A DNA stretch of 64,000 nucleotides. Origin: Arthrobacter sp. StoSoilB20. Its GTDB lineage: Bacteria > Actinomycetota > Actinomycetes > Actinomycetales > Micrococcaceae. Positions within the stretch are counted from its first letter, which is position 1; each line of letters begins with the position of its first letter. The stretch is taken from contig NZ_AP024651.1 in assembly GCF_019977295.1 (NCBI RefSeq), positions 1,178,001-1,242,000 of the forward strand, given 5' to 3'. The notes below the pieces were generated by a model that was given only the letters and a program-made list of their open reading frames with translations, was not told where the DNA came from and did not search any database. The translations under genes were made by a program, and so were the position numbers. This document shows, in pieces, positions 2,959-23,906 of the stretch.

Positions 2959-3582
2959 GTGAACCGACATAAATTCCTGGCCCGAGGCGCAGCCATTTCG
3001 ACTGCAACGGCATTGTTGCTGGGTGTCGCCGGAATGGCGATGGCAGACCAGAACCACGGCGATCAGGACGTCGATGTCAATGTCGGCATTACCGAAATCG
3101 TAGACGGCGGTGTGTTGGCCATGAGCGTGGCGGGCACCGCCACGGCCCTGACTGAGGATGGCTCCACACCCACGGTGCGGCAGTTCAAGGGCACCCTGCC
3201 TACCGTGACGGTGACAGATACCCGGTCCCCGGATGAGATCCCTGCCGGTGCCGGCTGGTACGTGCTGGGTACCTCAACCGATTTCGCCGGCGGCGCGGGA
3301 CAACCTGCCATAGGCGCCTCCCACCTGGGCTGGGCACCGAAAGTCATCGACGGCGGCGCGTCCGGTCAGGTAGCCGAAGGCGACCAGGTGAACACCTCGA
3401 TGGATTCCGGCGCCAACGCAGTAGGCCTGGTGGACCAGGAACTGCTCGCGCTGGCTTTGGATTCGGGAGCAATTGCCACTGAAGGGCAGTGGACAGCCAA
3501 CGCTGACTTGTTCATGAAGACGCCTGCAGCCGTGGCGCCGGGCGACTACACCGCGAAGCTCACTCTGTCCCTGTTTGAATAG
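2959..3582 (+). CDS. Secreted WxL-like surface protein (csc-type), paralogue 1
   Basis: This 207-residue protein has a signal peptide (n-region NRHKF, hydrophobic core about 12-26, AMA cleavage site) and a beta-rich mature part starting with NHGDQDVDVNV. It matches the layout of WxL-domain proteins: a GWYVLG segment in the middle and a final GDYTAKLTLSLFE, although the second Trp of the canonical WxL motif is Leu here. It is closely related to the 207-residue protein at 22577-23200. The GTG start at 2959 follows an AAGAAG ribosome-binding sequence. The next gene, for a DUF916-like membrane protein, starts on the base after this stop codon, the same pairing seen in Firmicutes csc clusters. The role is inferred: non-covalent wall display in polysaccharide capture. 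It could instead be an uncharacterised secreted beta-sandwich family. Confidence 0.7.
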   Translation: MNRHKFLARGAAISTATALLLGVAGMAMADQNHGDQDVDVNVGITEIVDGGVLAMSVAGTATALTEDGSTPTVRQFKGTLPTVTVTDTRSPDEIPAGAGWYVLGTSTDFAGGAGQPAIGASHLGWAPKVIDGGASGQVAEGDQVNTSMDSGANAVGLVDQELLALALDSGAIATEGQWTANADLFMKTPAAVAPGDYTAKLTLSLFE

Positions 3583-4680
3583 ATGCGCCGGAGGTATCTT
3601 CATCCTATGAGGCTCCCAATGCTGGGGCGGGCCGGTCGTACTGCCCCAAGGCGGCTTGTCGTGGCCATGTACCTTGTGGCATCTGTAATCTTTGTCAGCG
3701 CCGCTTTTGCGCCGGCCGGCTTTGCCACCACCGGTGATCCCACGGCAAGTCCGGTCACGTGGGCCGTGACTCCCGCGGATGCTACCGGCCCTGACGGCCG
3801 CTCGTGGGTGGAACTGGAACTCGATTCCGGGGTGAGCGTGGATGAATATTTGGCGGTCAGAAACCTCAGCGACAGGGACGTCACTTTCTCTCTCACTGCG
3901 GCTGATGGGTACTTCACTCCGGCCGGCCGCTTCAACATGCTCCCTGGCGACAAACAGTCGGTAGCTGCAGGTACCTGGATCTCCATGGACAAGACGGTCA
4001 CCGTAGCGGCGGGAAGTACCGCCGTGGTGCCGTTCACGGTGACGGTCCCGGACAACGCGACGCCAGGCGATCATGCAGCGGGTATAGCTGCCTCGATCTA
4101 TTCACAAGGTGGCTCGGACGGGACTCAACTGGGCGTGGAGAGCCGCGTCGGGTTCCGGGTCATGACTCGGGTAAAAGGCGAGGTAAAACCCGCGCTGAGC
4201 ATGAAGGCAACCGCTAGCTACGATACGTCGTGGAATCCCTTGGAACCCGGATCTGCGGACCTCACGGTTGACCTAGAGAACACGGGCAACGTCCGTTTAT
4301 CCGTGGACCCTTCCACTATGGTGAACGACGCCCGGTGGCCGGCCGCTGGGACCGACGAAGCCCGAACTCTCGAATTGCTGCCCGGAGACCGTCGATCCGT
4401 CAGCATCCACGTCCCTCAGGTGTGGCCGCTGGGCATGATGACCTTGCCAGTGACGGTCTCGCAAGGGGTGATTGCCCCTGACGGTGCCACTCAGACGCTG
4501 GACCCGGTGTGGGAAAATGTGGCGCTCTGGGCGATTCCGTGGCCGCAGCTCGCCGTTCTTGTTGCTTTGTTGCTTCTGTTTGCGGGTCTCTTCCGGGGGC
4601 GCAAGCGGCGGAAGAAGGAGCTGGTCCGGCTGGTGGAGGAGGCCCGCGAGGCCGGGCGTCGGGAAGCGGGAACCCCCTGA
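3583..4680 (+). CDS. DUF916-like membrane-anchored surface protein (WxL-interacting type)
   Basis: The 365-residue product has a basic N-terminus and a signal-peptide-like hydrophobic stretch (about 25-48), then two beta-sandwich regions (about 55-175 and 200-300). A single transmembrane helix at about 317-337 is followed by a strongly basic cytoplasmic tail (RGRKRRKKELVRL). The first region carries DUF916 features: EYLAVRNLSDRDVTFSL and the GDHAAGIAASI segment. In Firmicutes such proteins bind peptidoglycan and partner WxL proteins. Here the gene directly follows a WxL-like gene with zero spacing (TAG then ATG), implying translational coupling. A second possible start is ATG 3607, 12 nt after a GGAGG. 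Substrate or partner binding is inferred only. Confidence 0.75.
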   Translation: MRRRYLHPMRLPMLGRAGRTAPRRLVVAMYLVASVIFVSAAFAPAGFATTGDPTASPVTWAVTPADATGPDGRSWVELELDSGVSVDEYLAVRNLSDRDVTFSLTAADGYFTPAGRFNMLPGDKQSVAAGTWISMDKTVTVAAGSTAVVPFTVTVPDNATPGDHAAGIAASIYSQGGSDGTQLGVESRVGFRVMTRVKGEVKPALSMKATASYDTSWNPLEPGSADLTVDLENTGNVRLSVDPSTMVNDARWPAAGTDEARTLELLPGDRRSVSIHVPQVWPLGMMTLPVTVSQGVIAPDGATQTLDPVWENVALWAIPWPQLAVLVALLLLFAGLFRGRKRRKKELVRLVEEAREAGRREAGTP

Positions 4681-4749
4681 TATCGGGGGTGCTTGCCGCG
4701 CTCCCGTAAAACTACCGGAATGCAGCAGAAATCCCTTGTCAAACCAACG

Positions 4750-4765
4750 ATGTTTACGTAAACTT
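4750..4765. promoter_or_regulatory. LacI-type operator 1 upstream of ABC transporter 1
   Basis: ATGTTTACGTAAACTT is a near-perfect palindrome centred on CG. The same motif recurs upstream of several genes in this locus. A possible -35 (TTGTCA, 4735-4740) lies just upstream, so the site would overlap the promoter. Confidence 0.7.
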
Positions 4766-4776
4766 CTTGCAACTCA

Positions 4777-4792
4777 ATGTTTACGTGAACAT
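4777..4792. promoter_or_regulatory. LacI-type operator 2 upstream of ABC transporter 1
   Basis: ATGTTTACGTGAACAT is a second copy of the palindrome, 27 bp centre to centre from operator 1 and about 125 bp before the substrate-binding-protein start. Confidence 0.7.
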
Positions 4793-4915
4793 CCACAAGA
4801 ATGTTGATTAGATCCGGCGACTTTCTGCTTCCACAGGCCCACACTTGAGCTATCTCACGGTGCGCATCCGGATGTTGGACAGTCTCACGAAGAACCACGA
4901 TCCAAAGGAGTAATC

Positions 4916-6232
4916 ATGGCTGTAAATCTTGGCCCGTTCCAGGCGGCGGAAGGCGCCGGTCCAGGACGGCGAACCTTCCTCAAGACACTTGGAATTGGCG
5001 CCGTCGCCGCCTCCGGCATCCCTTTGCTGTCAGCATGCACGGGTGGTTCCGGACCCGCGCCTGGTGCTTCATCAAAAAGCCTCACCTTCGGCTCGGGTTC
5101 ATCGGACGAAGTTCCCCGCGCTGCCTACAAGGCAGTAACGGACGCCTTCACCAAAAAGTCGGGCTTCGACGTGGTGACCAACGTGGTTCCCCACAACGAC
5201 TTTCAGAACAAGATCAACTCCTACTTGCAGGGCAGCCCGGATGACTCCTTCACCTGGTTCGCCGGTTACCGCATGCAGTACTACGCCGAGAAGGGCCTGC
5301 TAGCTCCCGTCGACGACGTCTGGGAGAAGATCGGCGGAAACTTCTCCGACGCCATCAAGAAGGCTTCCACCGGTCCTGACGGAAAAATGTACCTGGTTCC
5401 CAACTACAACTATCCATGGGGCTTCTTCTACCGGAAGAGTCTCTGGGCAGAAAAGGGCTACGCGGTTCCGGCCACTTTCGATGAGCTGACAACCTTGTCG
5501 GCCAAGATGAAGGCCGATGGCATCATCCCGATCGGCTTCGCCGACAAAGACGGCTGGCCGGCCATGGGCACCTTCGACTACATCAACATGCGGCTCAACG
5601 GGTACCAGTTCCACGTAGACCTTACTGCCCACAAGGAAAGCTGGGATCAGAAGAAGGTCAGCGACGTCTTCGATACCTGGAAAGCACTCCTGCCGTTCCA
5701 GGACCCCGCAGCACTGGGGCAGACTTGGCAGGACGCAGCCAAAGCCCTCGAGGCCAAGAAGACCGGCATGTATCTCCTGGGCTCATTCGTGACACAGCAG
5801 TTCACGGATCCCGCAGTTCTGGCGGACATCGACTTCTTCCCGTTCCCCGAGATCGCCATGGAAGGCACTGACGCCGTTGAGGCTCCGATCGATGGCCTGC
5901 TGCTGTCGAAGAAGGGTGGCGAGAATCAGGCAGCCCGCGACTACCTTGCCTTCATGGGAACTCCTGAGGGCCAGGACGCCTATGCGGCCGTGGATACCTC
6001 CAACATCGCAACGGTGAAGGGCGCTGACGCGTCCAAGTACTCTGCTTTGAACAAGAAGTGTGCGGACACCATTGCCAACGCGAAGTACATCAGCCAGTTC
6101 CTGGACCGCGATGCGTTGCCGGCCATGGCCAACAACGTCATGATCCCGGCTCTTCAATCCTTCATTAAGGATGGAAGCGTCGACGTGAAGAATCTGGAAG
6201 CGCAGGCAAAGTCGCTCTACGCGGCCCAATAG
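4916..6232 (+). CDS. Sugar ABC transporter substrate-binding lipoprotein (transporter 1)
   Basis: This 438-residue solute-binding protein of the carbohydrate (family 1, MalE-like) group carries a twin-arginine-like signal (GRRTFLK, residues 18-24), a hydrophobic core and the lipobox LSAC, with the lipidated Cys at 41. The mature part has typical SBP segments such as WFAGYRMQYYAEKGLLAPVDD and PNYNYPWGFFYRKSLW. The ATG follows a good AAAGGAG with 5-nt spacing. It is the first gene of an SBP-permease-permease operon with no ATPase gene, as usual in actinobacteria that use a shared MsiK-type ATPase. Two LacI-type operators lie upstream. The ligand is probably a galacto-oligosaccharide, by context. 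Confidence 0.93.
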   Translation: MAVNLGPFQAAEGAGPGRRTFLKTLGIGAVAASGIPLLSACTGGSGPAPGASSKSLTFGSGSSDEVPRAAYKAVTDAFTKKSGFDVVTNVVPHNDFQNKINSYLQGSPDDSFTWFAGYRMQYYAEKGLLAPVDDVWEKIGGNFSDAIKKASTGPDGKMYLVPNYNYPWGFFYRKSLWAEKGYAVPATFDELTTLSAKMKADGIIPIGFADKDGWPAMGTFDYINMRLNGYQFHVDLTAHKESWDQKKVSDVFDTWKALLPFQDPAALGQTWQDAAKALEAKKTGMYLLGSFVTQQFTDPAVLADIDFFPFPEIAMEGTDAVEAPIDGLLLSKKGGENQAARDYLAFMGTPEGQDAYAAVDTSNIATVKGADASKYSALNKKCADTIANAKYISQFLDRDALPAMANNVMIPALQSFIKDGSVDVKNLEAQAKSLYAAQ

Positions 6233-6288
6233 CGCAGGACTGCCCTGGATCTACGGTTGCTGGTCAACCGGCCAGGCTTCCCGAGCAA

Positions 6289-6320
6289 GGGTCGGCCGCG
6301 GGTCGCACCGCGGCCGGCCC
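6289..6320 (+). terminator. Intercistronic hairpin between SBP 1 and its permeases
   Basis: A 13-bp GC-rich stem (GGGTCGGCCGCGG against CCGCGGCCGGCCC, one G-U pair) with a 6-nt loop lies between the binding-protein and permease genes, without a T tract. Such hairpins often protect the 3' end of the binding-protein mRNA or attenuate transcription so that binding protein exceeds permease. Confidence 0.6.
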
Positions 6321-6348
6321 CTGTGCGACGAATACCAAAGGAATTCCC

Positions 6349-7359
6349 ATGAGTACCACAGCCGAAAAACCGGCCTCCCCGAACAGTGGGCCCCCTGCAG
6401 GGGGCGCCCAACGCGGGGCAGCACACGCCTCGCCGGCAACTGCCGGAAGAAAGCGCAATAAGTCCAGGAAGGTTCGCCGCCTGAGCCGCAGGGACAAAAT
6501 CGTCCTTGGCATCATGGTGGGCCTTCCAACGCTCATTCAGCTGCTGTTCGTTTGGTTGCCCACCCTGGCCTCAATTGGGCTGAGCTTCACCCGATGGAAC
6601 GGGCTGGACTTGGCAGACATCAAGTCTGCCGGGACGGAAAACTATGAGTTCATCAGCCAGAACTACCCACCGTTCTGGCCGGCCATGCAGCACAACGTGC
6701 TGTGGCTGGCTTTCCTGGCCCTGATTGCAACGCCGCTGGGCCTTCTGCTCGCTGTGCTCCTGGACCAGAAGATCCGGGGAAGCAAGATCTACCAAAGCAT
6801 CTTCTTCACGCCCGTCATGCTCTCCCTGGCATTGATCGGTATCATCTGGCAGCTCTTCTACAACCGCGACAGCGGTCTGCTGAACTTCCTGCTCGGTACG
6901 GCCGGCACGCCCCAGGCCGTGGACTGGTTCGGTGATTCGAACGTCAACATCTGGGCCGCCATGATCGCAGCTACGTGGCGCCACGCAGGCTACGTCATGA
7001 TCCTTTACTTGGCTGGCCTGAAGGGTGTTGACCCCGCCCTCAGGGAAGCAGCGTCGATTGACGGCGCAAATGCTGTCCAGACCTTCTTCCGAGTAGTCTT
7101 CCCCGCCATGCGCCCGGTCAACATCGTGATCGTGGTCATCACCATCATTGAGTCCCTCCGCGCTTTTGACATTGTCTATGTCATCAACCGCGGCACCAAC
7201 GGGCTTGAACTGCTCAGCGCCCTGGTGATCCAAAACCTGATCGGTGAAGGACAGGTGATCGGCGTCGGTTCAGCATTGGCCGTGGTACTGCTCGTGATTT
7301 CCTTGGTACCGATTGTCTTCTACCTCATCCGCACCTTCGGCAAGGAGAAAGAGGCATGA
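6349..7359 (+). CDS. Sugar ABC transporter permease, MalF type (transporter 1)
   Basis: This 336-residue inner-membrane protein has a long basic, Pro/Ala-rich cytoplasmic N-terminus (about 1-55) and then six hydrophobic segments. The EAA loop that contacts the ATPase is visible as REAASIDGANAVQTFFRVVFP. The length is normal for the family with a somewhat extended N-terminus. It overlaps the next permease by 4 bp (ATGA), so the two are translationally coupled. Together with the upstream binding protein it imports an oligosaccharide; an unlinked ATPase must power it. Confidence 0.92.
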   Translation: MSTTAEKPASPNSGPPAGGAQRGAAHASPATAGRKRNKSRKVRRLSRRDKIVLGIMVGLPTLIQLLFVWLPTLASIGLSFTRWNGLDLADIKSAGTENYEFISQNYPPFWPAMQHNVLWLAFLALIATPLGLLLAVLLDQKIRGSKIYQSIFFTPVMLSLALIGIIWQLFYNRDSGLLNFLLGTAGTPQAVDWFGDSNVNIWAAMIAATWRHAGYVMILYLAGLKGVDPALREAASIDGANAVQTFFRVVFPAMRPVNIVIVVITIIESLRAFDIVYVINRGTNGLELLSALVIQNLIGEGQVIGVGSALAVVLLVISLVPIVFYLIRTFGKEKEA

Positions 7360-8258
7360 GCACCATCGCCCGTACCCTTCCAGTCCAGAACGGCAGGACC
7401 GGCAAGACCGGCAAACGCCACTATGGCACTCACATCTTCCTCATCGTCATGGCCGCCATCTGGCTTGTGCCGCTGCTCTGGTCGCTCTATACGGCGCTCC
7501 GTCCCAAAGAGGACACCGACAAATACGGCTACTTCAGCTTCGGCGGCAGCTTCGGCTTCGAGAACTTCGTCCAGGCGTGGAACCAGGGAGGATTCTCGAA
7601 GTACTTCCTTAACTCAGTCCTGATCACCGTTCCCACCGTCCTGCTGACGCTTCTCTTCGCGTCCATGATGGCTTTTGCAGTATCGCGGGTGAGCTGGAAG
7701 TTCAACATCACGCTGCTGATCATGTTCACCGCCGGCAACCTCCTGCCACCGCAGGTCCTTGCAGCACCGCTGTTTGAGATGTTCAAACATGTTTCCCTGC
7801 CGTACTCCATCAGCGACTCCGGTAACCTGCTCAATACCTACATAGCTGTCATCATCGTGGACACTGCTTTCCAGATTGGCTTCTGCACCTTTGTGCTCTC
7901 CAATTACATGAAAGCCCTGCCGCAAGACCTGACGGAAGCTGCGTTGGTGGATGGCGCTGGAATCTGGCGGCAGTACTGGAACATCATCATGCCACTCTGC
8001 CGTCCGGCACTCGCAGCACTGGGCACGCTTCAAGTCATCTTCATCTACAACGACTTCTTCTGGCCGTTGCTGTTTATCCAGAGCGGTGACAGGCTCCCGA
8101 TCACCACCGCTATCAACAACCTTCAGGGCCAGTTCCTGAGCAACTACAACCTGATCGCGGCCGGTGCCATGATCACCTTGATTCCCACCATGATCATCTA
8201 CCTGGTCCTGCAACGACAGTTCGTGGCCGGGCTTACCCTGGGCGCAAGCAAGGGGTAA
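7356..8258 (+). CDS. Sugar ABC transporter permease, MalG type (transporter 1)
   Basis: The product (300 residues) has six predicted membrane segments and the EAA motif TEAALVDGAGIWRQYWNIIMP, which fits the MalG-type half of a carbohydrate importer. The start overlaps the stop of the MalF-type gene (ATGA). It ends the operon: a terminator hairpin begins 16 nt downstream, and the convergent lacI gene ends 33 bp away. Confidence 0.92.
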   Translation: MSTIARTLPVQNGRTGKTGKRHYGTHIFLIVMAAIWLVPLLWSLYTALRPKEDTDKYGYFSFGGSFGFENFVQAWNQGGFSKYFLNSVLITVPTVLLTLLFASMMAFAVSRVSWKFNITLLIMFTAGNLLPPQVLAAPLFEMFKHVSLPYSISDSGNLLNTYIAVIIVDTAFQIGFCTFVLSNYMKALPQDLTEAALVDGAGIWRQYWNIIMPLCRPALAALGTLQVIFIYNDFFWPLLFIQSGDRLPITTAINNLQGQFLSNYNLIAAGAMITLIPTMIIYLVLQRQFVAGLTLGASKG

Positions 8259-8273
8259 GCAGTATTGAACGGT

Positions 8274-8320
8274 GTAGCTGCGGAGGAGGGCTAGCCCTTA
8301 TCCGCAGCTACGCGCTTTTT
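8274..8320. terminator. Terminator between transporter 1 operon and convergent lacI
   Basis: An 11-bp stem GTAGCTGCGGA with its complement at 8301-8311 encloses a further short AGGG/CCCT hairpin. On the plus strand it is followed by GCGCTTTTT. It overlaps the 3' end of the convergent lacI gene. Confidence 0.75.
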
Positions 8321-9427
8321 CCGGGCAGGTGGCCTTGCGCTGGCAGGGGGAGCGGCAGTGCTCTTGCGCACCACCATGCTGGTAGGCACCGTGGTGAAAT
8401 CGTCCACCGAACCGGTGCCGGCAATCTGCTGAAGCAGGTTTTCGATGCTCAGGCGGCCCACGGCGTAGAAATCCTGGTGGATGGTTGTCAGAGGCGGCCA
8501 GAAGGAGGTGGACTCGTCCAAGTCGTCGAATCCCACAATGCTGACATCGTCCGGGATGCTCCGTCCTTGTTCGTGCAGAGCCCGCATTGCCCCCAGGGCC
8601 ATTTGGTCATTGGCGGCAAAAATGGCGGTGACATCCGGGTTGCCCGCAAGCTCCAAGCCGATTTGGTAGCCGGATTCTGTGGACCAGTCGCCATGGAGGA
8701 CCGGGGGAGCCTCAATCCCGGCTTCTTCCAATGTCCGCTGCCATGACTCTTCCCGGTGCGTCGCCGAGAAAGAGGTGGTGGGCCCACCGATATGCCACAC
8801 CTGTTGGTGGCCAAGGTCCAGAAGGTGCTGGGTAGCGAACCGTGCACCCTGGGCCTGGTCGGTATCCACCATGGGATAGCCGAAACCGGCATTGGAATCG
8901 ATCACCACTGCCGGGAGGTCCTCAGGAAGAGATATGTCAGCTTCATCCAGGAGGTGGGCCTCGAAGATGATCACCACACCGTCCACTTGCTGTTCGCGCA
9001 GTCTTTCGTAAGCCCCGGACACGGTTCCGGTAGTGGGATCCTGCACGGGTATGAGCGTCACTGAATAGCCAGCCCGTGAGGCAGCGGTCGCAATGGCGTC
9101 CAGGGTGCGCATGTTGCCGAAGCTGGAGAGCGTGAACATGACGACGCCGATGGATTTGAACTGGCCGCTCTTCAGTGCACGCGCGGCTCTGTTGGGCCGG
9201 TAGCCAAGTTCCTTCATTGCATCGAGGACTCTGTTCCTAGTGGATTCTTCGACGTTGGTGAGTCCGTTGGAAACCCTGGAAACCGTTTGTGCGGACACGC
9301 CTGCGGCCTTTGCCACGTCCCCAATGGATGGGCCCCTGGCGGCGCGCTTCTTGGCCGCGAGCTTCCTGGACTGCTTGGACTCTCCCGCCGGAGCCTCGAT
9401 GCTTGTGTTCTCCTGATCCATGTTCAC
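8291..9427 (-). CDS. LacI-family transcriptional repressor, paralogue 1
   Basis: The 378-residue repressor has an N-terminal helix-turn-helix (GPSIGDVAKAAGVSAQTVSR, about residues 33-52), the hinge helix NRAARALKSGQ and a periplasmic-binding-protein-like effector domain ending about residue 350, then a basic Ala/Pro-rich tail. It starts with GTG at 9427; an in-frame ATG lies two codons later at 9421. Its DNA-binding region and most of its effector domain match the LacI at 13379-14470. An operator-like palindrome overlaps its own start codon, indicating autorepression. The effector is unknown; a galactose-containing saccharide is likely by context. Confidence 0.93.
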   Translation of the reverse strand: MNMDQENTSIEAPAGESKQSRKLAAKKRAARGPSIGDVAKAAGVSAQTVSRVSNGLTNVEESTRNRVLDAMKELGYRPNRAARALKSGQFKSIGVVMFTLSSFGNMRTLDAIATAASRAGYSVTLIPVQDPTTGTVSGAYERLREQQVDGVVIIFEAHLLDEADISLPEDLPAVVIDSNAGFGYPMVDTDQAQGARFATQHLLDLGHQQVWHIGGPTTSFSATHREESWQRTLEEAGIEAPPVLHGDWSTESGYQIGLELAGNPDVTAIFAANDQMALGAMRALHEQGRSIPDDVSIVGFDDLDESTSFWPPLTTIHQDFYAVGRLSIENLLQQIAGTGSVDDFTTVPTSMVVRKSTAAPPASARPPARKKRVAADKG

Positions 9428-9435
9428 CTAAACAA
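9420..9435. promoter_or_regulatory. Operator overlapping the start codon of lacI paralogue 1
   Basis: ATGTTCACCTAAACAA matches the locus palindrome and contains the GTG start of the minus-strand lacI gene. The equivalent site is at 14463-14478 for the second lacI. Confidence 0.6.
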
Positions 9436-9455
9436 AGGTACTGTCACTTTCAGTC

Positions 9456-9471
9456 CTGTTTGCGTAGATAT
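9456..9471. promoter_or_regulatory. Weak second operator upstream of lacI paralogue 1
   Basis: CTGTTTGCGTAGATAT is a degenerate copy placed 36 bp from the start-codon operator, mirroring the 34-bp spacing at the second lacI. Confidence 0.4.
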
Positions 9472-9544
9472 TTCCAAATGTTGCCCAAAAGGCCTCCAGT
9501 GCCGGAACGGCCGGGAGGTCGGCGCCTACGGAAGGACGGGTTGT

Positions 9545-10582: not shown

Positions 10583-10912
10583 CGATGGACCATTCCTTCA
10601 TTCTGCGCCTTGGTGCGCAACGAAACTGATGGGGGGGAGCAGACAGCGGTCTTGGGGAAAGCGCAGCGGTGTCCCGGGCGTTGTTGTTCGGGAAGCCCGT
10701 CAGGGTGCGTCGTCGACGGCACGGAAGCGGCCTGTGCGTCCAGCGACAAGAAGCTTCAGAACGAACCCGATCCACCCTAAGGATTGCACCATTATCAAAC
10801 AATAGCTACCAAAATAGTACATTGTACGCGGGTAGTCCAAGCGCCTTCGACGGGGACGTCGGCGGTTAGTCCGCGACTACGCCCTTGTCGTGGCTGGTCG
10901 CGGTTCCCACCC

Positions 10913-10942
10913 TTGACAATGACGCCGGGTAACCCTTCAATG
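10913..10942 (+). promoter_or_regulatory. Putative promoter of the phosphodiesterase gene
   Basis: A consensus -35 TTGACA (10913-10918) is followed after 18 nt by TCAATG (10937-10942), which runs into the LacI-type operator at 10940. The -10 element is poor, so the exact start is uncertain. Confidence 0.4.
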
Positions 10943-13337: not shown

Positions 13338-13338
13338 G

Positions 13339-14512: not shown

Positions 14513-14534
14513 AGCGAGAAGAGAAGAATTAATC

Positions 14535-15452: not shown

Positions 15453-15455
15453 CCC

Positions 15456-16412: not shown

Positions 16413-16421
16413 TAAGCCCCG

Positions 16422-16445
16422 ACGACGGCGACCTCCCGCCGTCGT
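16422..16445 (+). terminator. Intercistronic hairpin between permeases and SBP 2
   Basis: A 9-bp stem ACGACGGCG/CGCCGTCGT with a 6-nt loop lies 9 nt after the permease stop and 37 nt before the binding-protein ATG. There is no T tract, so processing or partial termination is more likely than full termination. Confidence 0.5.
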
Positions 16446-16482
16446 GAATCTCCCAAACCGCATCTGAAAGGCACCACATTCA

Positions 16483-17838
16483 ATGAAGAACAATCATCGC
16501 TTCCGGCGGGCAGCCGGCGCCGCTCTGGCGGCAAGCCTCCTGATGGGTGGCCTCGCCGCCTGCAGTGGCTCCGGCACAACGGCCAACGCCGGGGCCGAAG
16601 GCGCCAGCGCCGAGGACATCGCGAAGGCACTGGACACCGAGACCACCCTCACAGTGTGGGGTTGGGCGCCGCAGCTCGAACCAATCGTGGAGGCCTTCGA
16701 AGCCAAGTACCCCAAGGTCCACGTCAACCTGGAAAACGTGGGAACGGGCAACGCCCACTACACCAAGCTGCAGAACGCTGTTAAGGCCGGAAGCGGGGCT
16801 CCGGACGTTGCACAGATCGAATACAACGCCCTGCCGCAGTTCGCCCTGTCCGATTCCTTGGTCAACCTGAAGGACTTCGGCGCGGAGGAGCTCAAGGACA
16901 ATTACACAGCGTCAACTTGGGGCTCGGTGAACCTCAACGGTGGCGTCTACGCCCTGCCGCAGGACTCAGGTCCCATGGCCATGTTCTACCGGGCCGACGT
17001 CTTCGAAAAGCACGGCATCAGCATCCCCACCACGTGGGATGAGTACGTTGAAGCCGGCAAGAAGCTCCACGCTGCGGATCCCAAGGCTTACATCACCAGT
17101 GACACCGGCGATGCCGGTTTCACCACCAGCATGATCTGGCAGGCCGGCGGCAAGCCCTACACGCTGGACGGAAGCACCAAAGTAGCCGTTGATCTCCAGG
17201 ATGAAGGCGCCAAGAAGTGGACCGGCACCTGGAACCAGCTGCTCAAGAACGATCTCCTCTCGCCCGTCACCAGCTGGAGCGACGAATGGTACAAGGGCCT
17301 CTCGGACGGAAGCATCGCCACGCTGATCATCGGCGCATGGATGCCCGCAAACCTCGAATCGGGTGCGGCAGGCGCGAGCGGTCAGTGGCGGGTAGCCCCA
17401 ATGCCGACCTACGAGAAGGGCGCAGCCGCAACGGCTGAGAATGGTGGCGGTGGCGACGCCGTACTGAAGCAGAGCAAGAACAAGGCTGCGGCCTACGGCT
17501 TCCTCCAGTTCGCAAACGGCCCTGAAGGATCCAAGATCCACGCTGCAAACGGTGGCTTCCCGTCCACCACGGCCGATCTTGAGAGCGATTCGTTCCTGAA
17601 CGCCGAGAACGCCTACTTCGGCGGCCAGAAGATCAACGAGGTCCTGGTGCAGGCGTCGAAGGACGTGGTGCCGGGCTGGAGCTACCTTCCCTTCCAGACC
17701 TACGCCAACAGCATCTACAGCGACACCGTTGGCCAGGCTTACGGCTCCAAGGGTGACCTGAACGACGGCTTGAAGGCTTGGCAGGACGCCACCGCCAAGT
17801 ACGGACAGCAGCAGGGCTTCACCGTTACCACCAAGTAA
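16483..17838 (+). CDS. Sugar ABC transporter substrate-binding lipoprotein (transporter 2)
   Basis: This is a 451-residue family 1 solute-binding protein. It has a short signal peptide (MKNNHRFRRAAG, then a hydrophobic core) and a lipobox LAAC, with lipidated Cys27. TLTVWGWAPQLEPIVEAFEAKYPKV is a standard SBP N-terminal strand-helix region. The ATG follows GAAAGGCACC. It lies just upstream of the GH35 beta-galactosidase gene, which argues for a beta-galactoside ligand. Transport would need a shared ATPase encoded elsewhere. Confidence 0.93.
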   Translation: MKNNHRFRRAAGAALAASLLMGGLAACSGSGTTANAGAEGASAEDIAKALDTETTLTVWGWAPQLEPIVEAFEAKYPKVHVNLENVGTGNAHYTKLQNAVKAGSGAPDVAQIEYNALPQFALSDSLVNLKDFGAEELKDNYTASTWGSVNLNGGVYALPQDSGPMAMFYRADVFEKHGISIPTTWDEYVEAGKKLHAADPKAYITSDTGDAGFTTSMIWQAGGKPYTLDGSTKVAVDLQDEGAKKWTGTWNQLLKNDLLSPVTSWSDEWYKGLSDGSIATLIIGAWMPANLESGAAGASGQWRVAPMPTYEKGAAATAENGGGGDAVLKQSKNKAAAYGFLQFANGPEGSKIHAANGGFPSTTADLESDSFLNAENAYFGGQKINEVLVQASKDVVPGWSYLPFQTYANSIYSDTVGQAYGSKGDLNDGLKAWQDATAKYGQQQGFTVTTK

Positions 17839-17909
17839 GGCCGTGGCGCGGGTCCAGGGCGTCCCCCGGTCCTGGACTCTGCTCCACCATTTCAGATTGG
17901 ATTTCCCCT

Positions 17910-19679
17910 ATGCCAACCTTCACCATCGGCGAGCAGGACTTCATGCTCGACGGTCAGCCCCATCGGATTCTCTCCGGCGCTTTGCACTACTTCCGCGTCC
18001 ATCCGGATCAATGGGCGGACCGGATCCGGAAGGCCCGGCAAATGGGGCTCAACACCATTGAGACCTACATTCCGTGGAACGCGCATGCTCCCTCCCCGGA
18101 GGTCTTCGATACCTCAGGTGGCTTGGACCTTGGCCGTTTCCTGGACCTCGTCGCTGCGGAAGGGATGCACGCGATCGTTCGCCCGGGGCCGTACATCTGT
18201 GCGGAATGGGATAACGGCGGGCTCCCTGCTTGGCTGTTTGACCGTGGCGCTGCTGCCATCCGGGCCGATGATCCCGTGTATATGGCAGCCCTCACCGAGT
18301 ATCTCGAGCAGCTCGCACCCATCCTGGTTCCCCGCCAGATAGATGCCGGCGGTCCCATCATCCTGATCCAGATTGAGAACGAGTACGGTGCCTACGGCGC
18401 CGACCGTTTCTACCTGGAAAAGCTCGTCAAGGTCAACCGGGAAATGGGGCTGACCGTGCCGTTCACCACGGTTGACCAGCCGCAGGATGACATGTTGGCC
18501 AACGGCAGCCTCCCGGAACTGCACAAGACGGGCTCGTTCGGCAGCCGCTCTGCGGAGCGCCTGGAAACACTTCGCCGCCATCAGCCCACCGGCCCCCTCA
18601 TGTGTTCTGAATTCTGGGTGGGCTGGTTCGATCACTGGGGAGCGCACCACCACACCACAACCGTGGAGCAGTCCGCCAACGATCTGGAGGTGCTGCTGGA
18701 GCTTGGCGCGTCCGTGAATATCTACATGTTCCACGGCGGCACCAACTTTGGATTCACCAACGGCGCGAACGACAAGGGTGTTTACCAGCCGATCGTTACC
18801 AGCTACGACTACGACGCCCCTTTGGACGAAGCTGGAAACCCGACGCCGAAGTACTGGGCCTTCCGCGAGGTTATTTCCAAATACACAACCCTCGACGACG
18901 ACGACGTTCCGGCCCCGCCCCAGCTTGGTTCGGCACTGTCCGTCAACCTGACGCAATCACTGCCGCTGTGGGATTGCCTGGACAGGCTCGGGAAGTGGAC
19001 CTCGCACGAGGGAATCCGCTCCCACGACGAGCTGGGCCACTACTCCGGATTCACTCTCTACCGCAGAGGAATCGAAGTTTCCGGCCACGCTGTGCTGGAG
19101 TTCGACGAAGTACGTGACCGGGCCCAGGTGTTCCTGGACAGGGTGCCGGTGGGAATCCTCTCCCGGGATCACCATGAAAGGTCTCTGGCGCTGCCCCATG
19201 ACGCGGTTGGCACCTTGGAAATCCTGGTGGAGGACCAAGGGCGCGTGAACTACGGTCCCCGTTTGGGGGAGTCCAAGGGTTTGATCGGAAATGCCCGGAT
19301 CAACGGAGAAACCCTCTGGAACTGGGACATCCTTCCCTTGGAACTCGACGACGCAGTTCCGGTCTCAGCGGCATTGGAGGAACAACCCTCCCTTCCTGAC
19401 GTACCAGTGTCCGGGCCCGTCTTTGTCCATGGGACTTTTGACCTCCCCGGCGGTGGCGATACTTTCCTTTCCACCAAGGGTTGGACCAAAGGAGCGGTGT
19501 GGATCAACGGCTTCTGCCTGGGACGGTACTGGTCCCGAGGACCGCAGGCCACGCTTTACGTTCCAGGCTCCCTCCTGCGTAAGCACGGCAACACCATCAC
19601 CGTGCTTGAACTCCAAGCGGCCACCCACAGCTCCGTTTCCTTCGTGGCCAGCAACGATCTGGGCCATACGGAGTTCTGA
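17910..19679 (+). CDS. GH35 beta-galactosidase
   Basis: From ATG 17910 the enzyme has 589 residues; upstream in-frame codons overlap the binding-protein gene and encode no family sequence. The GH35 barrel (about 8-330) starts SGALHYFRVHPDQWADRI. It has the acid/base Glu158 in IENEYGAYG and the nucleophile Glu234 in MCSEFWVGW, placed as in human GLB1 (Glu188/Glu268). C-terminal beta domains follow, ending with WINGFCLGRYW. There is no signal peptide, so it acts in the cytoplasm on imported beta-galactosides and releases galactose for the following aldose 1-epimerase and GalE. Confidence 0.94.
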   Translation: MPTFTIGEQDFMLDGQPHRILSGALHYFRVHPDQWADRIRKARQMGLNTIETYIPWNAHAPSPEVFDTSGGLDLGRFLDLVAAEGMHAIVRPGPYICAEWDNGGLPAWLFDRGAAAIRADDPVYMAALTEYLEQLAPILVPRQIDAGGPIILIQIENEYGAYGADRFYLEKLVKVNREMGLTVPFTTVDQPQDDMLANGSLPELHKTGSFGSRSAERLETLRRHQPTGPLMCSEFWVGWFDHWGAHHHTTTVEQSANDLEVLLELGASVNIYMFHGGTNFGFTNGANDKGVYQPIVTSYDYDAPLDEAGNPTPKYWAFREVISKYTTLDDDDVPAPPQLGSALSVNLTQSLPLWDCLDRLGKWTSHEGIRSHDELGHYSGFTLYRRGIEVSGHAVLEFDEVRDRAQVFLDRVPVGILSRDHHERSLALPHDAVGTLEILVEDQGRVNYGPRLGESKGLIGNARINGETLWNWDILPLELDDAVPVSAALEEQPSLPDVPVSGPVFVHGTFDLPGGGDTFLSTKGWTKGAVWINGFCLGRYWSRGPQATLYVPGSLLRKHGNTITVLELQAATHSSVSFVASNDLGHTEF

Positions 19680-19681
19680 CC

Positions 19682-20677
19682 ATGACACTGACTCAAGCAA
19701 TAACGGCAGGAATTGCTGCTCCGACCGGCCGTCAGTTTCGGATTTCCGCGGAATCGGAAACCGACGGCCGCGTGGTCACGGCGGTGATCACTGAGATCGG
19801 TGGCACCATCCGCAGCCTCACCGTGGACGGCGAGCCCTTGATCGAGGAGTTTCCCGAGTTCGGGCTTCCCAAACACTGCGAGGGGGAGCTCCTCATTCCT
19901 TGGCCCAACAGGGTCCGGGATGGGCGATGGTCGCATGACGGACAAGACCTCCAGTTGGCCATCAGCGAACCCGAGCGCAGCAACGCCATTCATGGCCTGG
20001 TCAGGCTGCGTCCCCACACGCTGGTTCGCCGGTCCGCCAGCGAGCTGATCCTTCAGGTTCGGATCTACCCGAGCGAGGGCTACCCGTTCGCTGTGGACGT
20101 GGAGACCACTTACTCGGTATCGCCGGAGGGGCTGACGGTCACCCATGCGTTGACCAACAAGTCAGGCACGCCCGCGCCTGCGGCCATCGGCGCCCACCCG
20201 TACCTGCGGGTTGGTTCTACGCCCATGCAGGAGGTTTCCTTGACCCTCAACGCTGCCTCATATGTGGTGGTGGATGAGCGTCTAAACCCCGTGGGCACGT
20301 CCCCTGTTTCCGGGACCCCCATGGATCTGTCCGCAGGGCCCAAAGTGGGCTGGCTGCACCTGGACACAGCATTCCTGGATCTCACTCCTGCTCCGGACGG
20401 AAGGTACCGGCACCTCCTGGAAGCACCCAACAGAGACGCCGTTGAGGTCTGGGGCGATGCCAACTATCAGTACGCGCAGGTGTACACCACTAAGAGCTAT
20501 CCAGCGGGAGGCCACCGGACCGCGGTAGCGGTGGAACCCATGACGGCGCTCCCCAACGCTTTCAATTCCGGTGCCGGCCTGCGCTGGCTTGAACCGGGGG
20601 AGGAATGGATTTCGACCTGGGGTATTTCACACCGGTTCGGCCCCGCACAGGGCAACCACCATAGAGGAGACAACTGA
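19682..20677 (+). CDS. Aldose 1-epimerase family protein
   Basis: The 331-residue protein belongs to the galactose mutarotase-like superfamily: NAIHGLVRLRPHT and IGAHPYLRV hold the two conserved histidines, and a Glu near the C-terminus (VAVEPMTALPNAF) matches the catalytic base. It starts 2 nt after the beta-galactosidase stop codon and ends 2 nt before galE, so it is part of one operon. It would convert beta- to alpha-galactose released by GH35. Confidence 0.9.
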   Translation: MTLTQAITAGIAAPTGRQFRISAESETDGRVVTAVITEIGGTIRSLTVDGEPLIEEFPEFGLPKHCEGELLIPWPNRVRDGRWSHDGQDLQLAISEPERSNAIHGLVRLRPHTLVRRSASELILQVRIYPSEGYPFAVDVETTYSVSPEGLTVTHALTNKSGTPAPAAIGAHPYLRVGSTPMQEVSLTLNAASYVVVDERLNPVGTSPVSGTPMDLSAGPKVGWLHLDTAFLDLTPAPDGRYRHLLEAPNRDAVEVWGDANYQYAQVYTTKSYPAGGHRTAVAVEPMTALPNAFNSGAGLRWLEPGEEWISTWGISHRFGPAQGNHHRGDN

Positions 20678-20679
20678 CC

Positions 20680-21654
20680 ATGGCATGGCTAGTAACTGGA
20701 GGAGCCGGCTACATCGGCTCACACGTAGCCCAAGCACTCATGGATGACGGCCACGGCGTGGTGGTCATCGATGACCTGTCCAGCGGTAAGCGCGGATTTG
20801 TGCAGGAAGGTGCTGCTTTCGAGCAGGGATCACTGCTGGATACTGAATTCCTCAAAGAAGTATTCGATCGCAACGATGTGGCGGGCGTGATCCACCTAGC
20901 GGGTTTCAAGTACGCCGGTGTATCGGTTGAATGGCCGCTTCACACCTATTTCCAGAACGTCACCGGTACAGGAAACCTGCTCGCCGCCATGGAAGCAGCC
21001 TCTGTGCGCGCGATCGTCTTTTCCTCGAGCGCCGCCGTGTATGGGAATACGGATGTGGATCTCGTGACCGAATCGACGCTGACGAGGCCGGAATCTCCCT
21101 ATGGCGAATCCAAGCTCATTGGTGAGTGGCTCATCGCAGACCAATCACGGGCAACCGGGCTTCGCCATACATCCCTCCGGTACTTCAACGTGGTCGGCTC
21201 CGGAATCGCGGACGTGGTGGATGTCAGCCCCCACAATCTGTTTCCCTTGGTCTTCCAAGCGCTGAAGGACGGCGCAACGCCAAAGATCTTTGGCACCGCA
21301 TACGCCACGCCGGATGGCAGTTGCGTTCGGGACTACGTCCACGTTGCTGATGTTGCCGCGGCCCACGTGGAAGCTGCCCGGAAGCTCCAGGAAGGTGTTG
21401 ACCTTGAGCCCGTCTACAACCTCGGCAGCGGCACCGGTGTATCCGTCCGTCAGATCATGACTGAAATGGCCTCTGTGACGGGGATTCAGTTCGCTCCACA
21501 AATTTGCGCAGCCCGGCCCGGCGATCCTGCCCGGATCGTCGCTTCCGGCGAACTGGCACGCCGGGACATCGCCTGGGAACCGAGGCATACGCTCCGGGAC
21601 ATGATCTCCAGCGCCTGGGCGGCAGCCGGGAACCAGAAGTTATCCACCCAATAG
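20680..21654 (+). CDS. galE: UDP-glucose 4-epimerase
   Basis: The 324-residue extended short-chain dehydrogenase/reductase has the NAD-binding motif TGGAGYIGSH (residues 6-15), the catalytic SSSAAVYG serine region and the YGESK motif with Tyr141 and Lys145. Its family converts UDP-galactose to UDP-glucose in the Leloir pathway. It closes the GH35-mutarotase-galE run. GalK and GalT are not present in this window and must lie elsewhere. Confidence 0.93.
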   Translation: MAWLVTGGAGYIGSHVAQALMDDGHGVVVIDDLSSGKRGFVQEGAAFEQGSLLDTEFLKEVFDRNDVAGVIHLAGFKYAGVSVEWPLHTYFQNVTGTGNLLAAMEAASVRAIVFSSSAAVYGNTDVDLVTESTLTRPESPYGESKLIGEWLIADQSRATGLRHTSLRYFNVVGSGIADVVDVSPHNLFPLVFQALKDGATPKIFGTAYATPDGSCVRDYVHVADVAAAHVEAARKLQEGVDLEPVYNLGSGTGVSVRQIMTEMASVTGIQFAPQICAARPGDPARIVASGELARRDIAWEPRHTLRDMISSAWAAAGNQKLSTQ

Positions 21655-21684
21655 CACTGCAACGCACTATCCCAAAGGAACATC

Positions 21685-21900
21685 ATGATCGAGGCGCCTG
21701 AACTTTTGGCAACCATCACGGCTACCAGCAAGACCACCATGGAGAATAACCTCAACGCCGCCATCCAGGCTGCGGAGCAGCGTGCGCGCAATGAAGGCCG
21801 CCGCGGGATCCTGGTCACGCGGCTGGACTATGCGTCCTACACGGTGGAACTCTCACCGGACGTGCCCTACGGCTACACCTATGAGAAGCATGACGCCTGA
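21685..21900 (+). CDS. Small hypothetical protein upstream of the LPATG gene
   Basis: The 71-residue product is not a family I recognise. It has a helical Ala/Asn/Glu-rich middle and a short beta-like C-terminal half (ILVTRLDYASYTVELSPDVP), with no signal peptide or membrane segment. The ATG follows AAAGGAACATC. Its stop overlaps the start of the LPATG-protein gene by 11 bp, so the two are likely translationally coupled. It is 30 bp downstream of galE and may belong to that operon. Confidence 0.65.
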   Translation: MIEAPELLATITATSKTTMENNLNAAIQAAEQRARNEGRRGILVTRLDYASYTVELSPDVPYGYTYEKHDA

Positions 21901-22255
21901 GGCGAAGGGATCGCGGGGCATGCCTCGCTCCGCCCGGCGGCGCTTCACTGTTCGAAGTCGTTCAGCGGATTCTGCCAGGATTCTGTTGTCATGCGTGCTG
22001 GTCGGCTTCAGCCTGGTGCTGGGGCTTACGCCGGGTTGGGCTTCGGAGATCAACGGCTCCGACATCAAGATCAGTGTTGACATTGCGCCGCGCACAGAAT
22101 GTAGCGGTCAGTGTCTTCCGAACGGACTCCCCGCGACGGGCCTCGACCCCGTAGGGGCCCTCGTGGCTGCCGGGCTCTGCGGCGGGACCGGGGTGCTCCT
22201 CCTGTTCTTCGGTCGGGGGCAAACCGCCACGAGACGCCTTTCCACGGGCGGCTAG
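21890..22255 (+). CDS. Small LPATG sortase-anchored surface protein (CscD-like)
   Basis: This 121-residue protein has a basic N-terminus, a signal-peptide hydrophobic core (about 31-48) and a short acidic mature part (EINGSDIKISVDIAP). An LPATG sortase motif (80-84), a hydrophobic helix (about 88-107) and the basic tail RGQTATRR complete a textbook cell-wall sorting signal. Only about 30 residues would be exposed, as in the small LPxTG proteins of Firmicutes csc clusters. ATG 21890 overlaps the upstream gene; ATG 21920 is an alternative start that keeps the signal peptide. A WxL-like gene follows downstream. Confidence 0.8.
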   Translation: MTPEAKGSRGMPRSARRRFTVRSRSADSARILLSCVLVGFSLVLGLTPGWASEINGSDIKISVDIAPRTECSGQCLPNGLPATGLDPVGALVAAGLCGGTGVLLLFFGRGQTATRRLSTGG

Positions 22256-22576
22256 GCCGAGGACGCGACATCATGGATGCACGCCCGCCAAAAGGTACAA
22301 AAACCCCTTGCTGGGCACCAGTATTCCGTGTAAGTTTACGTAAACATTATTAGGAATCTTTGCACCTGGTTCCCTGAATCATCTGCTTCGATGCGCATAG
22401 CCGCGCATCGCCCAGCATGCCCGCCAACCCTCGAGGCAACCGCTCACAGCGGGCGAGGGAGGGTGGAATTTCGCCCAATGGGGCTCTGTATACGAGCACA
22501 GAGTCCGCCCTGGCGCTTCCCTTACCGACACCTCTGGACATGAATCTCCCCCGCATTGCAATGAAGGAGCAAGACG
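22256..22576. other. 321-bp intergenic leader of the second WxL-like gene
   Basis: It holds a LacI-type operator at 22332-22347 and then about 230 nt of leader. No convincing small gene, terminator or riboswitch is visible. Confidence 0.5.
22332..22347. promoter_or_regulatory. LacI-type operator upstream of WxL-like gene 2
   Basis: AAGTTTACGTAAACAT has a 12-bp perfect palindromic core, GTTTACGTAAAC, identical to the core upstream of transporter 1. Confidence 0.7.
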
Positions 22577-23200
22577 ATGAGCAAAGCAAGCTTGATCGTA
22601 AGAATCTCAGCAGTTGCCGCTGGCACTGCCTTACTGGCCGGCGTGGCCGGAGCCGCACTGGCTGAAGAAAACCATGGCGACCAGGACGTCGACGTGAACG
22701 TGGCGATTGCGCAGATCGATGAGCCGGGAATTCTGGCCATGAGCGTGGCAGGAACCACGGCCACCCTGACGGAAGCCGGCTCGTCTCCCACCGTGCGCCA
22801 ATTCACGGGTTCGCTGCCCACGGTAACGGTGACTGATACGCGACTCCCGGACCAGATCCCGGCCGGTGCCGGCTGGTACGTCATTGGTACATCCACCGAC
22901 TTCACTGGAACCACGGGCCAGCCGGCGATCGGCGCTGGACATTTGGGGTGGTCCCCTTCGCTGATTAACGGTGGTGAATCGGGGCAGGTCGCCGAGGGTG
23001 ACGTTGTGGAAACGGTCATGGACACGGGCGCGGACTCAGTTGGCCTGGTGGACCAGGAATTGCTGGCCCTGGCCCTGGACTCAGCAGCGATTGCGCCTGA
23101 AGGGCAGTGGACAGCAACGGCCGGATTGTTCCTCCGCACGCCTGCTACCGTCGCACCCGGTGACTACACTGCGAACCTGACGTTGTCGTTGTTCGAGTAG
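22577..23200 (+). CDS. Secreted WxL-like surface protein (csc-type), paralogue 2
   Basis: The 207-residue protein is the close paralogue of the one at 2959-3582. It shares the mature N-terminus NHGDQDVDVNV, the MSVAGT block, the GWYVIGTSTDF segment, the VGLVDQELLALALDS block and the end GDYTANLTLSLFE. A signal peptide spans about residues 1-30 (GAALAEE cleavage region). The ATG follows AAGGAGCAAGACG. No DUF916 gene is adjacent here; the LPATG gene lies upstream and a DUF1349 gene downstream. The upstream operator suggests induction with the saccharide transporters. Function at the surface is inferred. Confidence 0.72.
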   Translation: MSKASLIVRISAVAAGTALLAGVAGAALAEENHGDQDVDVNVAIAQIDEPGILAMSVAGTTATLTEAGSSPTVRQFTGSLPTVTVTDTRLPDQIPAGAGWYVIGTSTDFTGTTGQPAIGAGHLGWSPSLINGGESGQVAEGDVVETVMDTGADSVGLVDQELLALALDSAAIAPEGQWTATAGLFLRTPATVAPGDYTANLTLSLFE

Positions 23201-23303
23201 ACGCTTTGCTGGTCCGGCCCCTGGGGGAGCCGGACTATTCTCTGTGTCCAGTATGAAAAAGTTGCAGAGGAATGTCCTGACTGCCGAATACAAGGAGCGC
23301 CCA

Positions 23304-23906
23304 TTGATCCCCGAAATACCAGGACTGCCGCCCATGGAGTGGACCTCAACGCCCGGTCATGCCAGCTACGGCGAAGCGGACGGGACATTGGTGCTCACGG
23401 CAGCTCCCGGCGTTGATTGGACCAACGATTCCCTGGGCGGGGTGCCGCAACATGGCGCCACGGCACTGGGGTTCAGGGCTCCCGCGGCTTTCTCGCTCTC
23501 GGCCAGGGTCCTGGTGGCCTCACCCCGGACAACGTTCGACGCCGGCGTGCTGACATTGTGGGCGGACAGCGACCACTGGGCAAAGCTCTGCTTCGAGTAT
23601 TCACCGCAGGGCGAAGCCATGGTGGTCAGTGTGGTCACCAACGGATTCTCCGACGATTCGAATGGGCCCGTGGTCACTGCTCCATGGGTTTACCTTCGCA
23701 TCAGCAGGGTGGGCCCGGCATGGGCGTTCCACTCGTCAGCCGATGGCAGTGCGTGGGACTTTGTCCGCCTTTTCAGGCTGGAATCCGAGAAACCCGTGCA
23801 CGTTGGCTTCATGTCCCAGGCGCCGATGGGAGAGAGCTGCGAGGCACGTTTTGATGCCATCACCTTGACGGAAGAACCTCCTGCGGACCTGCGCGACGGA
23901 AGTTAG
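23304..23906 (+). CDS. DUF1349 (concanavalin-like) domain protein
   Basis: This protein of about 200 residues matches DUF1349/YteU-like beta-jelly-roll proteins: WTSTPGHASYG at the start, DAGVLTLWADSDHWAKLCFEYS in the middle and HVGFMSQAPMGESCEARFD near the end. The TTG at 23304 is chosen because AAGGAG lies 6 nt upstream and the conserved domain begins right after. An upstream GTG (23244) would add 20 poorly matching residues. There is no signal peptide, so it is probably cytoplasmic. Related proteins occur in carbohydrate-utilisation loci; the activity is not known. Confidence 0.75.
   Translation: MIPEIPGLPPMEWTSTPGHASYGEADGTLVLTAAPGVDWTNDSLGGVPQHGATALGFRAPAAFSLSARVLVASPRTTFDAGVLTLWADSDHWAKLCFEYSPQGEAMVVSVVTNGFSDDSNGPVVTAPWVYLRISRVGPAWAFHSSADGSAWDFVRLFRLESEKPVHVGFMSQAPMGESCEARFDAITLTEEPPADLRDGS

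Follow-up and report, generated by a model that had tools for sequence, protein, structure and literature searches.

WxL surface proteins are known mainly from Firmicutes, which supply more than 91% of 938 WxL sequences according to the accessible part of PMC9772566. The WxL domain carries two Trp-x-Leu motifs, the distal one reading YXXX(L/I/V)TWXL (PMC5817068, available excerpt). In the csc clusters of Lactobacillus plantarum and other Firmicutes, a short acidic secreted WxL protein, a DUF916 membrane protein and a tiny LPxTG protein occur together under carbohydrate-linked regulation and are proposed to form a surface complex for plant saccharides (PMC1534035, accessible portion). The WxL-WxLIP clusters of enterococci, Listeria and lactobacilli likewise join WxL genes to genes for WxLIP, a PF06030 protein with a C-terminal membrane helix (PMC10599100 and PMC9772566, as far as their accessible text goes). 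Here we describe a locus of this kind in a 64,000-nucleotide stretch, the window, of the 4.78-Mb single-contig genome of Arthrobacter sp. StoSoilB20 (NZ_AP024651.1, positions 1,178,001 to 1,242,000).

The locus represents a csc/WxL variant spread over several actinobacterial families, a finding that is real and previously under-described. The original prediction placed two WxL-like secreted paralogues, a DUF916-like protein and a 121-residue LPATG protein among two sugar importers, a galactanase and a beta-galactosidase. All four surface genes lie where it put them, and the GH43, GH35 and two ABC importer genes are present. It caught only part of the pattern, missing a C-terminal domain (CTD) of about 98 residues that is common to the GH43 enzyme and a phosphodiesterase of the locus, and whose occurrence across the class follows that of the short WxL-like gene. 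The prediction's Micrococcaceae setting is correct for this locus but too narrow for the system, which has relatives in five other actinobacterial families: Microbacteriaceae, Micromonosporaceae, Streptosporangiaceae, Frankiaceae and Promicromonosporaceae. Among the matches listed in an open-access literature search, no paper treated actinobacterial WxL-like clusters or the CTD, and two annotated plasmid records call the WxL-like gene a 'hypothetical protein'.

An enzyme C-terminal domain and its association with short WxL-like genes

The CTD accompanies WxL-like genes at the level of whole genomes. We sampled 394 genomes of the class evenly, choosing them by neither gene (12 CTD and 7 WxL first-look candidates per genome were scored, and absences count as lower bounds). 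A CTD at E ≤ 1e-3 was present in all 20 genomes with a strong short WxL-like match (E < 1e-40, within a gap in the WxL list from 1e-46 to 2e-25) and in 13 of the 374 others (Fisher p = 3e-25, a value that ignores kinship). Counted by genus, the figures are 8/8 and 3/129 (p = 7e-11). Of the 36 strong WxL genes, 35 have a CTD at most 10 kb away, the exception being a fragment at a contig start. A further 35 genomes held only weaker, mostly longer WxL-like proteins, and six of them had a CTD.

Gene order can be followed in loci fetched by their WxL-like gene. Among the best 79 loci of 265 relatives, searched with profiles built on the first loci, 74 have a CTD within 10 kb of WxL, and in 61 the CTD gene shares its strand and ends upstream of it at a distance of 400 bp or less. 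L152, L157, L161, L184 and L204 lack a CTD in this range; in L152 and L161 the WxL gene is the second copy of a locus whose GH43-CTD gene is more than 10 kb away, and L157 sits at a contig end. Without nine Arthrobacter/Paenarthrobacter loci that overlap or are kin of the profile-building loci, the counts become 67/70 within 10 kb and 56/70 within 400 bp upstream. In 12 genomes holding one of the 79 loci, 34 of 36 WxL genes (E < 1e-50, nine weaker matches left out, at least 12 of the 36 already known) lie within 10 kb of a CTD, where 2.3 are expected at random. Fetching by the CTD is the less impressive direction: 20 loci beyond the known ones yielded new WxL genes in two (L128, L130) and none in 18. 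Plasmid records searched by DUF916 alone gave 11 that match, and the three examined all carry WxL and CTD genes. Two plasmids with such DUF916-WxL-CTD clusters are Cellulosimicrobium pCPRO01 (L230) and Clavibacter pCP (L231), so the system may move.

The CTD association is specific to one WxL type, the short LxLSLFE form. PF06030 matched (E ≤ 1e-3, best 1.3e-13) in 28 of 295 genomes of the family, the window's included, and we compared 28 DUF916 loci besides the window's from 27 genomes. A WxL-like gene lies within the fetched stretch of 27 of them (the exception is L050), which supports the predicted co-occurrence of WxL-like and DUF916 genes, and small LPxTG-type proteins occur in several relatives. 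The WxL-like gene usually adjoins DUF916, with some exceptions such as L061, where about 2.8 kb separate them. Several WxL types stand beside DUF916 in this sample, the short LxLSLFE type as well as longer or divergent ones. A CTD is present in four of five loci with the short type and absent from the remaining 23, which include one locus without a WxL gene. The fifth short-type locus, L060, is cut off by the end of its contig; elsewhere in that genome a CTD gene borders the end of a different contig (L131).

The CTD caps a wide range of secreted enzymes. Of 56 non-redundant CTD proteins we scanned 42, and among the 25 of 64 families listed they comprise 15 GH43, three GH127 and two each of GH95, GH59, phosphodiesterase and metallophosphoesterase, with single GH53, GH35, alpha-galactosidase and tannase-like enzymes. 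Many of these proteins also bear lectin or carbohydrate-binding module (CBM) domains. In the 79 loci, 109 of 124 CTD hits end within one residue of the protein's end and the rest within 24; in some loci without WxL the domain is internal or followed by a tail. An extreme C-terminal position on such varied enzymes suggests that the domain serves sorting, anchoring or docking and is not a further sugar-binding module. In the StoSoilB20 genome the CTD occurs exactly twice, both times in this locus.

The domain seems to be unnamed in Pfam and NCBIfam, where no model matches more than five of 101 CTDs (best E 2.8e-4) and single members weakly touch immunoglobulin (Ig)-like and CBM35 profiles; a PDB sequence search gave no significant relative. 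Two cysteines are invariant in the first 13 CTD sequences. The structure model is a seven-stranded, all-beta sandwich with a mean predicted local distance difference test score (pLDDT) of 94.6, a generic fold. Two identities were considered and rejected. A divergent WxL domain received an hhalign probability of 0.2%. Dockerins consist of helical, calcium-binding F-hand repeats; the model is all beta, and no dockerin is among the Pfam families listed.

Two groups of CTD proteins depart from the usual form. A 2953-residue protein (L140, 312-9173) carries tandem CTD-like domains at residues 2557-2653 and 2753-2848, and the stretch fetched around its gene shows no WxL gene. In one Micrococcaceae genus (g32), 17 genomes each hold a single divergent CTD in a protein of about 1200-1300 residues; the 11 loci fetched (L135-L139 and L142-L147) show no WxL gene within about 16 kb, and some have a charged tail after the domain.

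The surface proteins of the locus

The two WxL-like proteins are relatives of WxL that fall outside its strict definition. They are 72% identical and are the only matches in the genome at E ≤ 0.001. Their isoelectric points (pI; 4.26 and 4.05 for proteins 1 and 2) and sizes fit the 190-280 residues and pI 4-5 of CscB WxL proteins. Neither matches PF13731 (WxL) in a Pfam/NCBIfam scan, so we used relatives as a bridge. An iterative profile search seeded with the window proteins and four relatives found 46 domains, of which we aligned 44, leaving out two near-copies. PF13731 is matched by 11 of the 44 at E ≤ 1e-3 and by 24 at E ≤ 1 (best 2.8e-8), and no other family is matched at 1e-3. The first tryptophan is invariant (WxV in 36, WxL in four, WxI and WxA in two each), while the distal TWxL occurs in none of the 44; YTxxLTLSL stands there in the window proteins. 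The predicted WxL identity thus survives as kinship, through matching relatives and a kept first tryptophan, and fails for the distal motif.

Structure comparison places the fold less sharply. The model of WxL-like protein 1 has 145 residues at pLDDT ≥ 90; its loose part is an N-terminal segment (blocks 31-50, pLDDT 57-68) and the remainder is confident. Neither Foldseek nor VIA gave a match at E ≤ 0.001, and middling Z scores went to Ig-like chains, among them pilin and GH123. The solved WxL chain 9i25 is not among the 50 matches listed by either, which excludes nothing; it matched the WxL-like protein by sequence search only, weakly (E 0.17). PDB sequence searches found no significant relative of the WxL-like or DUF916-like proteins. 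Separately, a plasmid search with a 9i25 fragment gave one match, in Klebsiella pneumoniae record CP069367.1 (99011-99340, 93.6%), where no feature is annotated; it is possibly foreign DNA in the assembly.

The DUF916 identity of the neighbouring protein holds by a small margin. It matches PF06030 (WxLIP_PGBD) at 27.9 bits against a cut-off of 27.3, reaches 30.0 bits in a six-frame search and is the sole PF06030 match in the genome. Five Pfam matches of the scan at E ≤ 1 include no DUF3324 (HBD). Direct reading places hydrophobic stretches near both ends of its 365 residues, fitting CscA proteins of 320-380 residues with a signal peptide and C-terminal helix. Its pI is 6.35, whereas most CscA members are basic (pI > 9); acidic WxLIP examples exist in enterococci (PMC10599100, accessible part). 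The ATG at 3583 directly abuts the stop of WxL-like 1, and an orthologue in L073 indicates that the true start may be at 3607. In that orthologous locus (G146) a gene for a 964-residue protein (5700-8594) lies between WxL-like 1 and DUF916, and L150 has a gap of similar size there. Elsewhere, L060 encodes a 508-residue DUF916 protein whose own C-terminus is a sortase-type LPETG signal, so that it looks like a CscA-CscD fusion (6909-8435, G233). DUF916 genes frequently neighbour Ang-2, a protein from a search begun with a Streptomyces signal peptide (PMC12537917, accessible portion).

The LPATG protein has almost no exposed domain, as predicted: 28 residues separate its apparent signal-peptide cleavage site from LPATG. 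If translation starts at 21890 it has 121 residues, within the 90-140 of CscD, and the 28-residue stretch is shorter than the 40-60-residue mature peptide published for CscD proteins (PMC1534035, available text). Three sortases are encoded in the genome, so covalent anchoring is possible.

The mature peptide reads SEINGSDIKISVDIAP... and contains an alternating strand that recurs in small anchors of relatives and resembles the start of WxL-like proteins (DVDVNVxI); SDIKISVDIAP in the LPATG protein, for example, stands beside DVDVNVAIAQI in a WxL N-terminal strand. Scored with a position matrix built on the N-termini of 75 non-redundant WxL sequences, seven of the eight anchor peptides beat composition-matched shuffles (p 0.00005-0.0031; the eighth, 0.14). 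Among 5033 control 30-residue windows from DUF916 and CTD proteins, 0-16 score as high for the seven and 681 for the eighth. The pattern was first spotted by eye, the peptides are few and hand-trimmed, and two of the seven are orthologues. Candidates came from motif scans (four of ten in one scan were judged spurious), and the near-copies L153 and L167 were excluded. We treat the resemblance as a lead.

Gene order and operator-like sites

The first half of the locus runs from the GH43 exo-beta-1,3-galactanase-like gene through WxL-like 1, DUF916-like, ABC importer 1, LacI 1 and an oxidoreductase to the phosphodiesterase; LacI 2, ABC importer 2, GH35, aldose epimerase, galE, a 71-codon gene, the LPATG gene, WxL-like 2 and DUF1349 follow (Table 1). 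The GH43 gene begins 1434 bp upstream of the window, as placed by a 1430-residue orthologue in L069; PDB relatives of the enzyme include 3vsf, 7bys and 5flw. We infer that the locus is a regulon for the use of beta-1,3-galactan. The 71-codon gene (21685-21900, between galE and the LPATG gene) is conserved in relatives L070, L074 and L076.

Table 1. Features of the locus, in window coordinates
Feature	Position	Strand	Basis
GH43 exo-beta-1,3-galactanase-like enzyme, secreted, ricin-type lectin domain; C-terminal 952 of ~1430 residues	1-2859	+	Pfam and PDB relatives, orthologue L069
CTD of GH43 enzyme, ~98-residue C-terminal beta-sandwich, proposed docking domain	2557-2856	+	Shared-domain comparison, model
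WxL-like secreted protein 1, 207 residues	2959-3582	+	Profile search, relatives' PF13731 matches, model
DUF916/WxLIP-like protein, C-terminal membrane helix, 365 residues	3583-4680	+	Pfam PF06030
Operator-like site 5' of ABC importer 1	4751-4764	+	Motif scan
Operator-like site 5' of ABC importer 1	4778-4791	+	Motif scan
ABC sugar importer 1: binding protein and two permeases	4916-8258	+	Binding protein scanned; permeases read from sequence
LacI-family regulator 1	8291-9427	-	Domain scan
Operator-like site at LacI 1 start; weaker second at 9457-9470	9421-9434	+	Motif scan
Operator-like site 5' of phosphodiesterase-CTD gene	10941-10954	+	Motif scan
Type I phosphodiesterase-like secreted enzyme with terminal CTD (13041-13334)	10962-13337	+	Domain scan, CTD search
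LacI-family regulator 2	13379-14470	-	Domain scan
Two operator-like sites (14464-14477, 14498-14511) between LacI 2 and ABC importer 2	14464-14511	+	Motif scan
ABC sugar importer 2	14535-17838	+	Binding protein scanned; permeases read from sequence
GH35 beta-galactosidase, aldose 1-epimerase, GalE	17913-21654	+	Domain scan
Small LPATG protein, 121 residues, mature peptide motif SDIKISVDIAP	21890-22255	+	Sequence reading
Operator-like site 5' of WxL-like gene 2	22333-22346	+	Motif scan
WxL-like secreted protein 2, 207 residues	22577-23200	+	Profile search
DUF1349 protein adjoining WxL-like 2; membership in system uncertain	23244-23906	+	Pfam

Operator-like sites link the surface genes to the sugar genes. 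The operator TGTTTACGTAAACA has nine sites in the window at up to three mismatches, against 0.53 expected; none of 100 shuffles reached nine, and eight of the nine sites fall within 4751-22346. The GH43 start is itself preceded by two further sites, 22-56 bp away. Sites thus precede importer 1, both regulators, the phosphodiesterase, importer 2, WxL-like 2 and GH43, and the prediction that one WxL-like gene shares its operator with the galactan genes stands. WxL-like 1 and DUF916 each lack a separate site, and WxL-like 1 follows GH43 by 99 bp, so both probably belong to the GH43 operon.

The locus is patchy in its genus, a WxL-like relative being found in only six of 150 genomes of a genus sample. 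The closest named records, by identity of WxL-like 1, are Arthrobacter sp. MYb23 (98%), Paenarthrobacter histidinolovorans (90%) and P. aurescens TC1 (87%). Four genomes (G083, G023, G114, G146) have two WxL-like copies each, like the window. Beyond the locus, the window holds an AAA-ATPase gene (GPPGTGKT) with a partner gene at 23980-27496, which we take to recall McrBC-type restriction, a presumably Vsr-like reading frame at 31091-31618, and two small genes at 62588-63270 that we assume resemble a PIN-domain toxin and a Phd-type antitoxin.

A proposed surface platform, its alternatives and known systems

We give slightly better than an even chance to the reading that this is an actinobacterial relative of csc/WxL turned into a platform, on which secreted glycan-degrading enzymes would be retained at the surface through CTD docking. 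The reading is built on homology, gene order, co-occurrence and operator-like sites in common. The short WxL-like protein would leave the cell and stay at the wall together with the DUF916 protein, itself anchored in the membrane, helped in some loci by a sortase-attached LPxTG peptide. Secreted glycanases, here the exo-beta-1,3-galactanase, and the phosphodiesterase would be retained on this platform by their CTDs, releasing sugar next to the two ABC importers, and LacI-type repressors would switch on enzymes, platform and importers jointly.

A serious if minority possibility is that these genes are only neighbours: WxL-like/DUF916 and CTD enzymes would share polysaccharide-use clusters, and the CTD would be a carbohydrate-binding or stabilising Ig domain that makes no platform contact. 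Transporters and glycosidases do surround both CTD enzymes and WxL genes, and the generic fold with its weak Ig-like and CBM35 touches suits such a domain. Other observations also weigh against docking. Paralogous WxL proteins and neighbouring CTDs within genomes show no matching divergence in a mirror-tree comparison, so either any CTD fits any platform or there is no contact. Half of the CTDs in the 12 genomes lie far from any WxL gene, as would be expected of docking enzymes and equally of an independent domain, and CTDs occur without WxL. DUF916 was not found in 42 of the best 79 loci, and only 8 of 29 CTD genomes in the family sample are PF06030-positive, largely because of the divergent CTD clade in one genus (11 fetched loci without WxL). 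Mere neighbourhood sits poorly with the strong one-sided dependence between genomes (20/20 against 13/374) and with a CTD that tracks the short WxL type alone and not other types beside DUF916. Nor does a sugar-binding role suit a domain that caps phosphoesterases too, and glycosidases many of which already bear CBMs or lectin domains.

We consider it quite unlikely that the WxL-like proteins are soluble or wall-bound glycan binders that deliver oligosaccharides, with DUF916 as anchor and the enzymes freely secreted. In favour, an operator-like site precedes WxL-like 2, a DUF1349 gene adjoins it, and Lactobacillus brevis WxL proteins are reported to bind cellulose and xylan (PMC9026416, accessible part), but the tight CTD linkage would go unexplained. 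Hardly probable at all is that the WxL/DUF916 resemblance is a chance or annotation artefact of low-complexity beta-sandwich similarity. The window proteins lack a Pfam WxL hit, DUF916 barely clears its cut-off and fold matches are middling; against this, relatives reach 1.3e-13 for PF06030 and 2.8e-8 for PF13731, and both gene types occur together in 27 of 28 loci.

The docking platform could be extended into a more speculative form that we rate as rather improbable. The CTD would dock on the short WxL-like/WxLIP platform, and the sortase-anchored peptide would replace the N-terminal strand of WxL in donor-strand fashion, stapling the platform to peptidoglycan. This idea stems from the seven of eight peptides that beat shuffles and from the loose N-terminal segment of the WxL-like model. 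The small LPxTG proteins of csc clusters, so far unexplained, would thereby gain a function if strand replacement proved true.

If the CTD docks on a WxL-like platform, actinobacteria have a modular and seemingly unnamed form of glycanase display. Such display would account for the ability of free-living soil bacteria to hold on to what their costly secreted enzymes release; it would also carry csc/WxL biology past Firmicutes and offer a ready-made surface-display tag. Two open questions would become testable, the purpose of WxL-WxLIP clusters and the role of tiny LPxTG proteins. The carriers are some soil and plant-associated actinobacteria, whose genes suggest a plug-in way of holding enzymes at the surface.

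Cellulosomes display glycanases through dockerin-cohesin pairs, one small domain being common to many secreted glycanases while platform genes are few. The locus may resemble them in that outline; it differs in its seven-stranded beta-sandwich in place of a dockerin, in having no scaffoldin repeats and in a docking step that is putative. Donor-strand pilins (FimG, CsuA/B, CfaE) also count among the closest known systems. WxL-WxLIP clusters share the pairing of WxL and WxLIP genes and the membrane-anchored PF06030 protein, unlike this locus in their large host-binding WxL proteins (PMC10599100 and PMC9772566, accessible text). No large CscC protein with a C-terminal WxL2 was seen in the window, and the genome search for WxL-like proteins gave the two short copies only. 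The predicted csc-like type holds for the WxL-like, DUF916 and small LPxTG proteins and not for the dual WxL motif or the large WxL protein; the Pfam scan gave no DUF3324 match. Compared with csc clusters, the locus has lost the dual motif, keeps its LPxTG gene 17 kb from DUF916, and has CTD-bearing secreted enzymes where csc has large WxL proteins.

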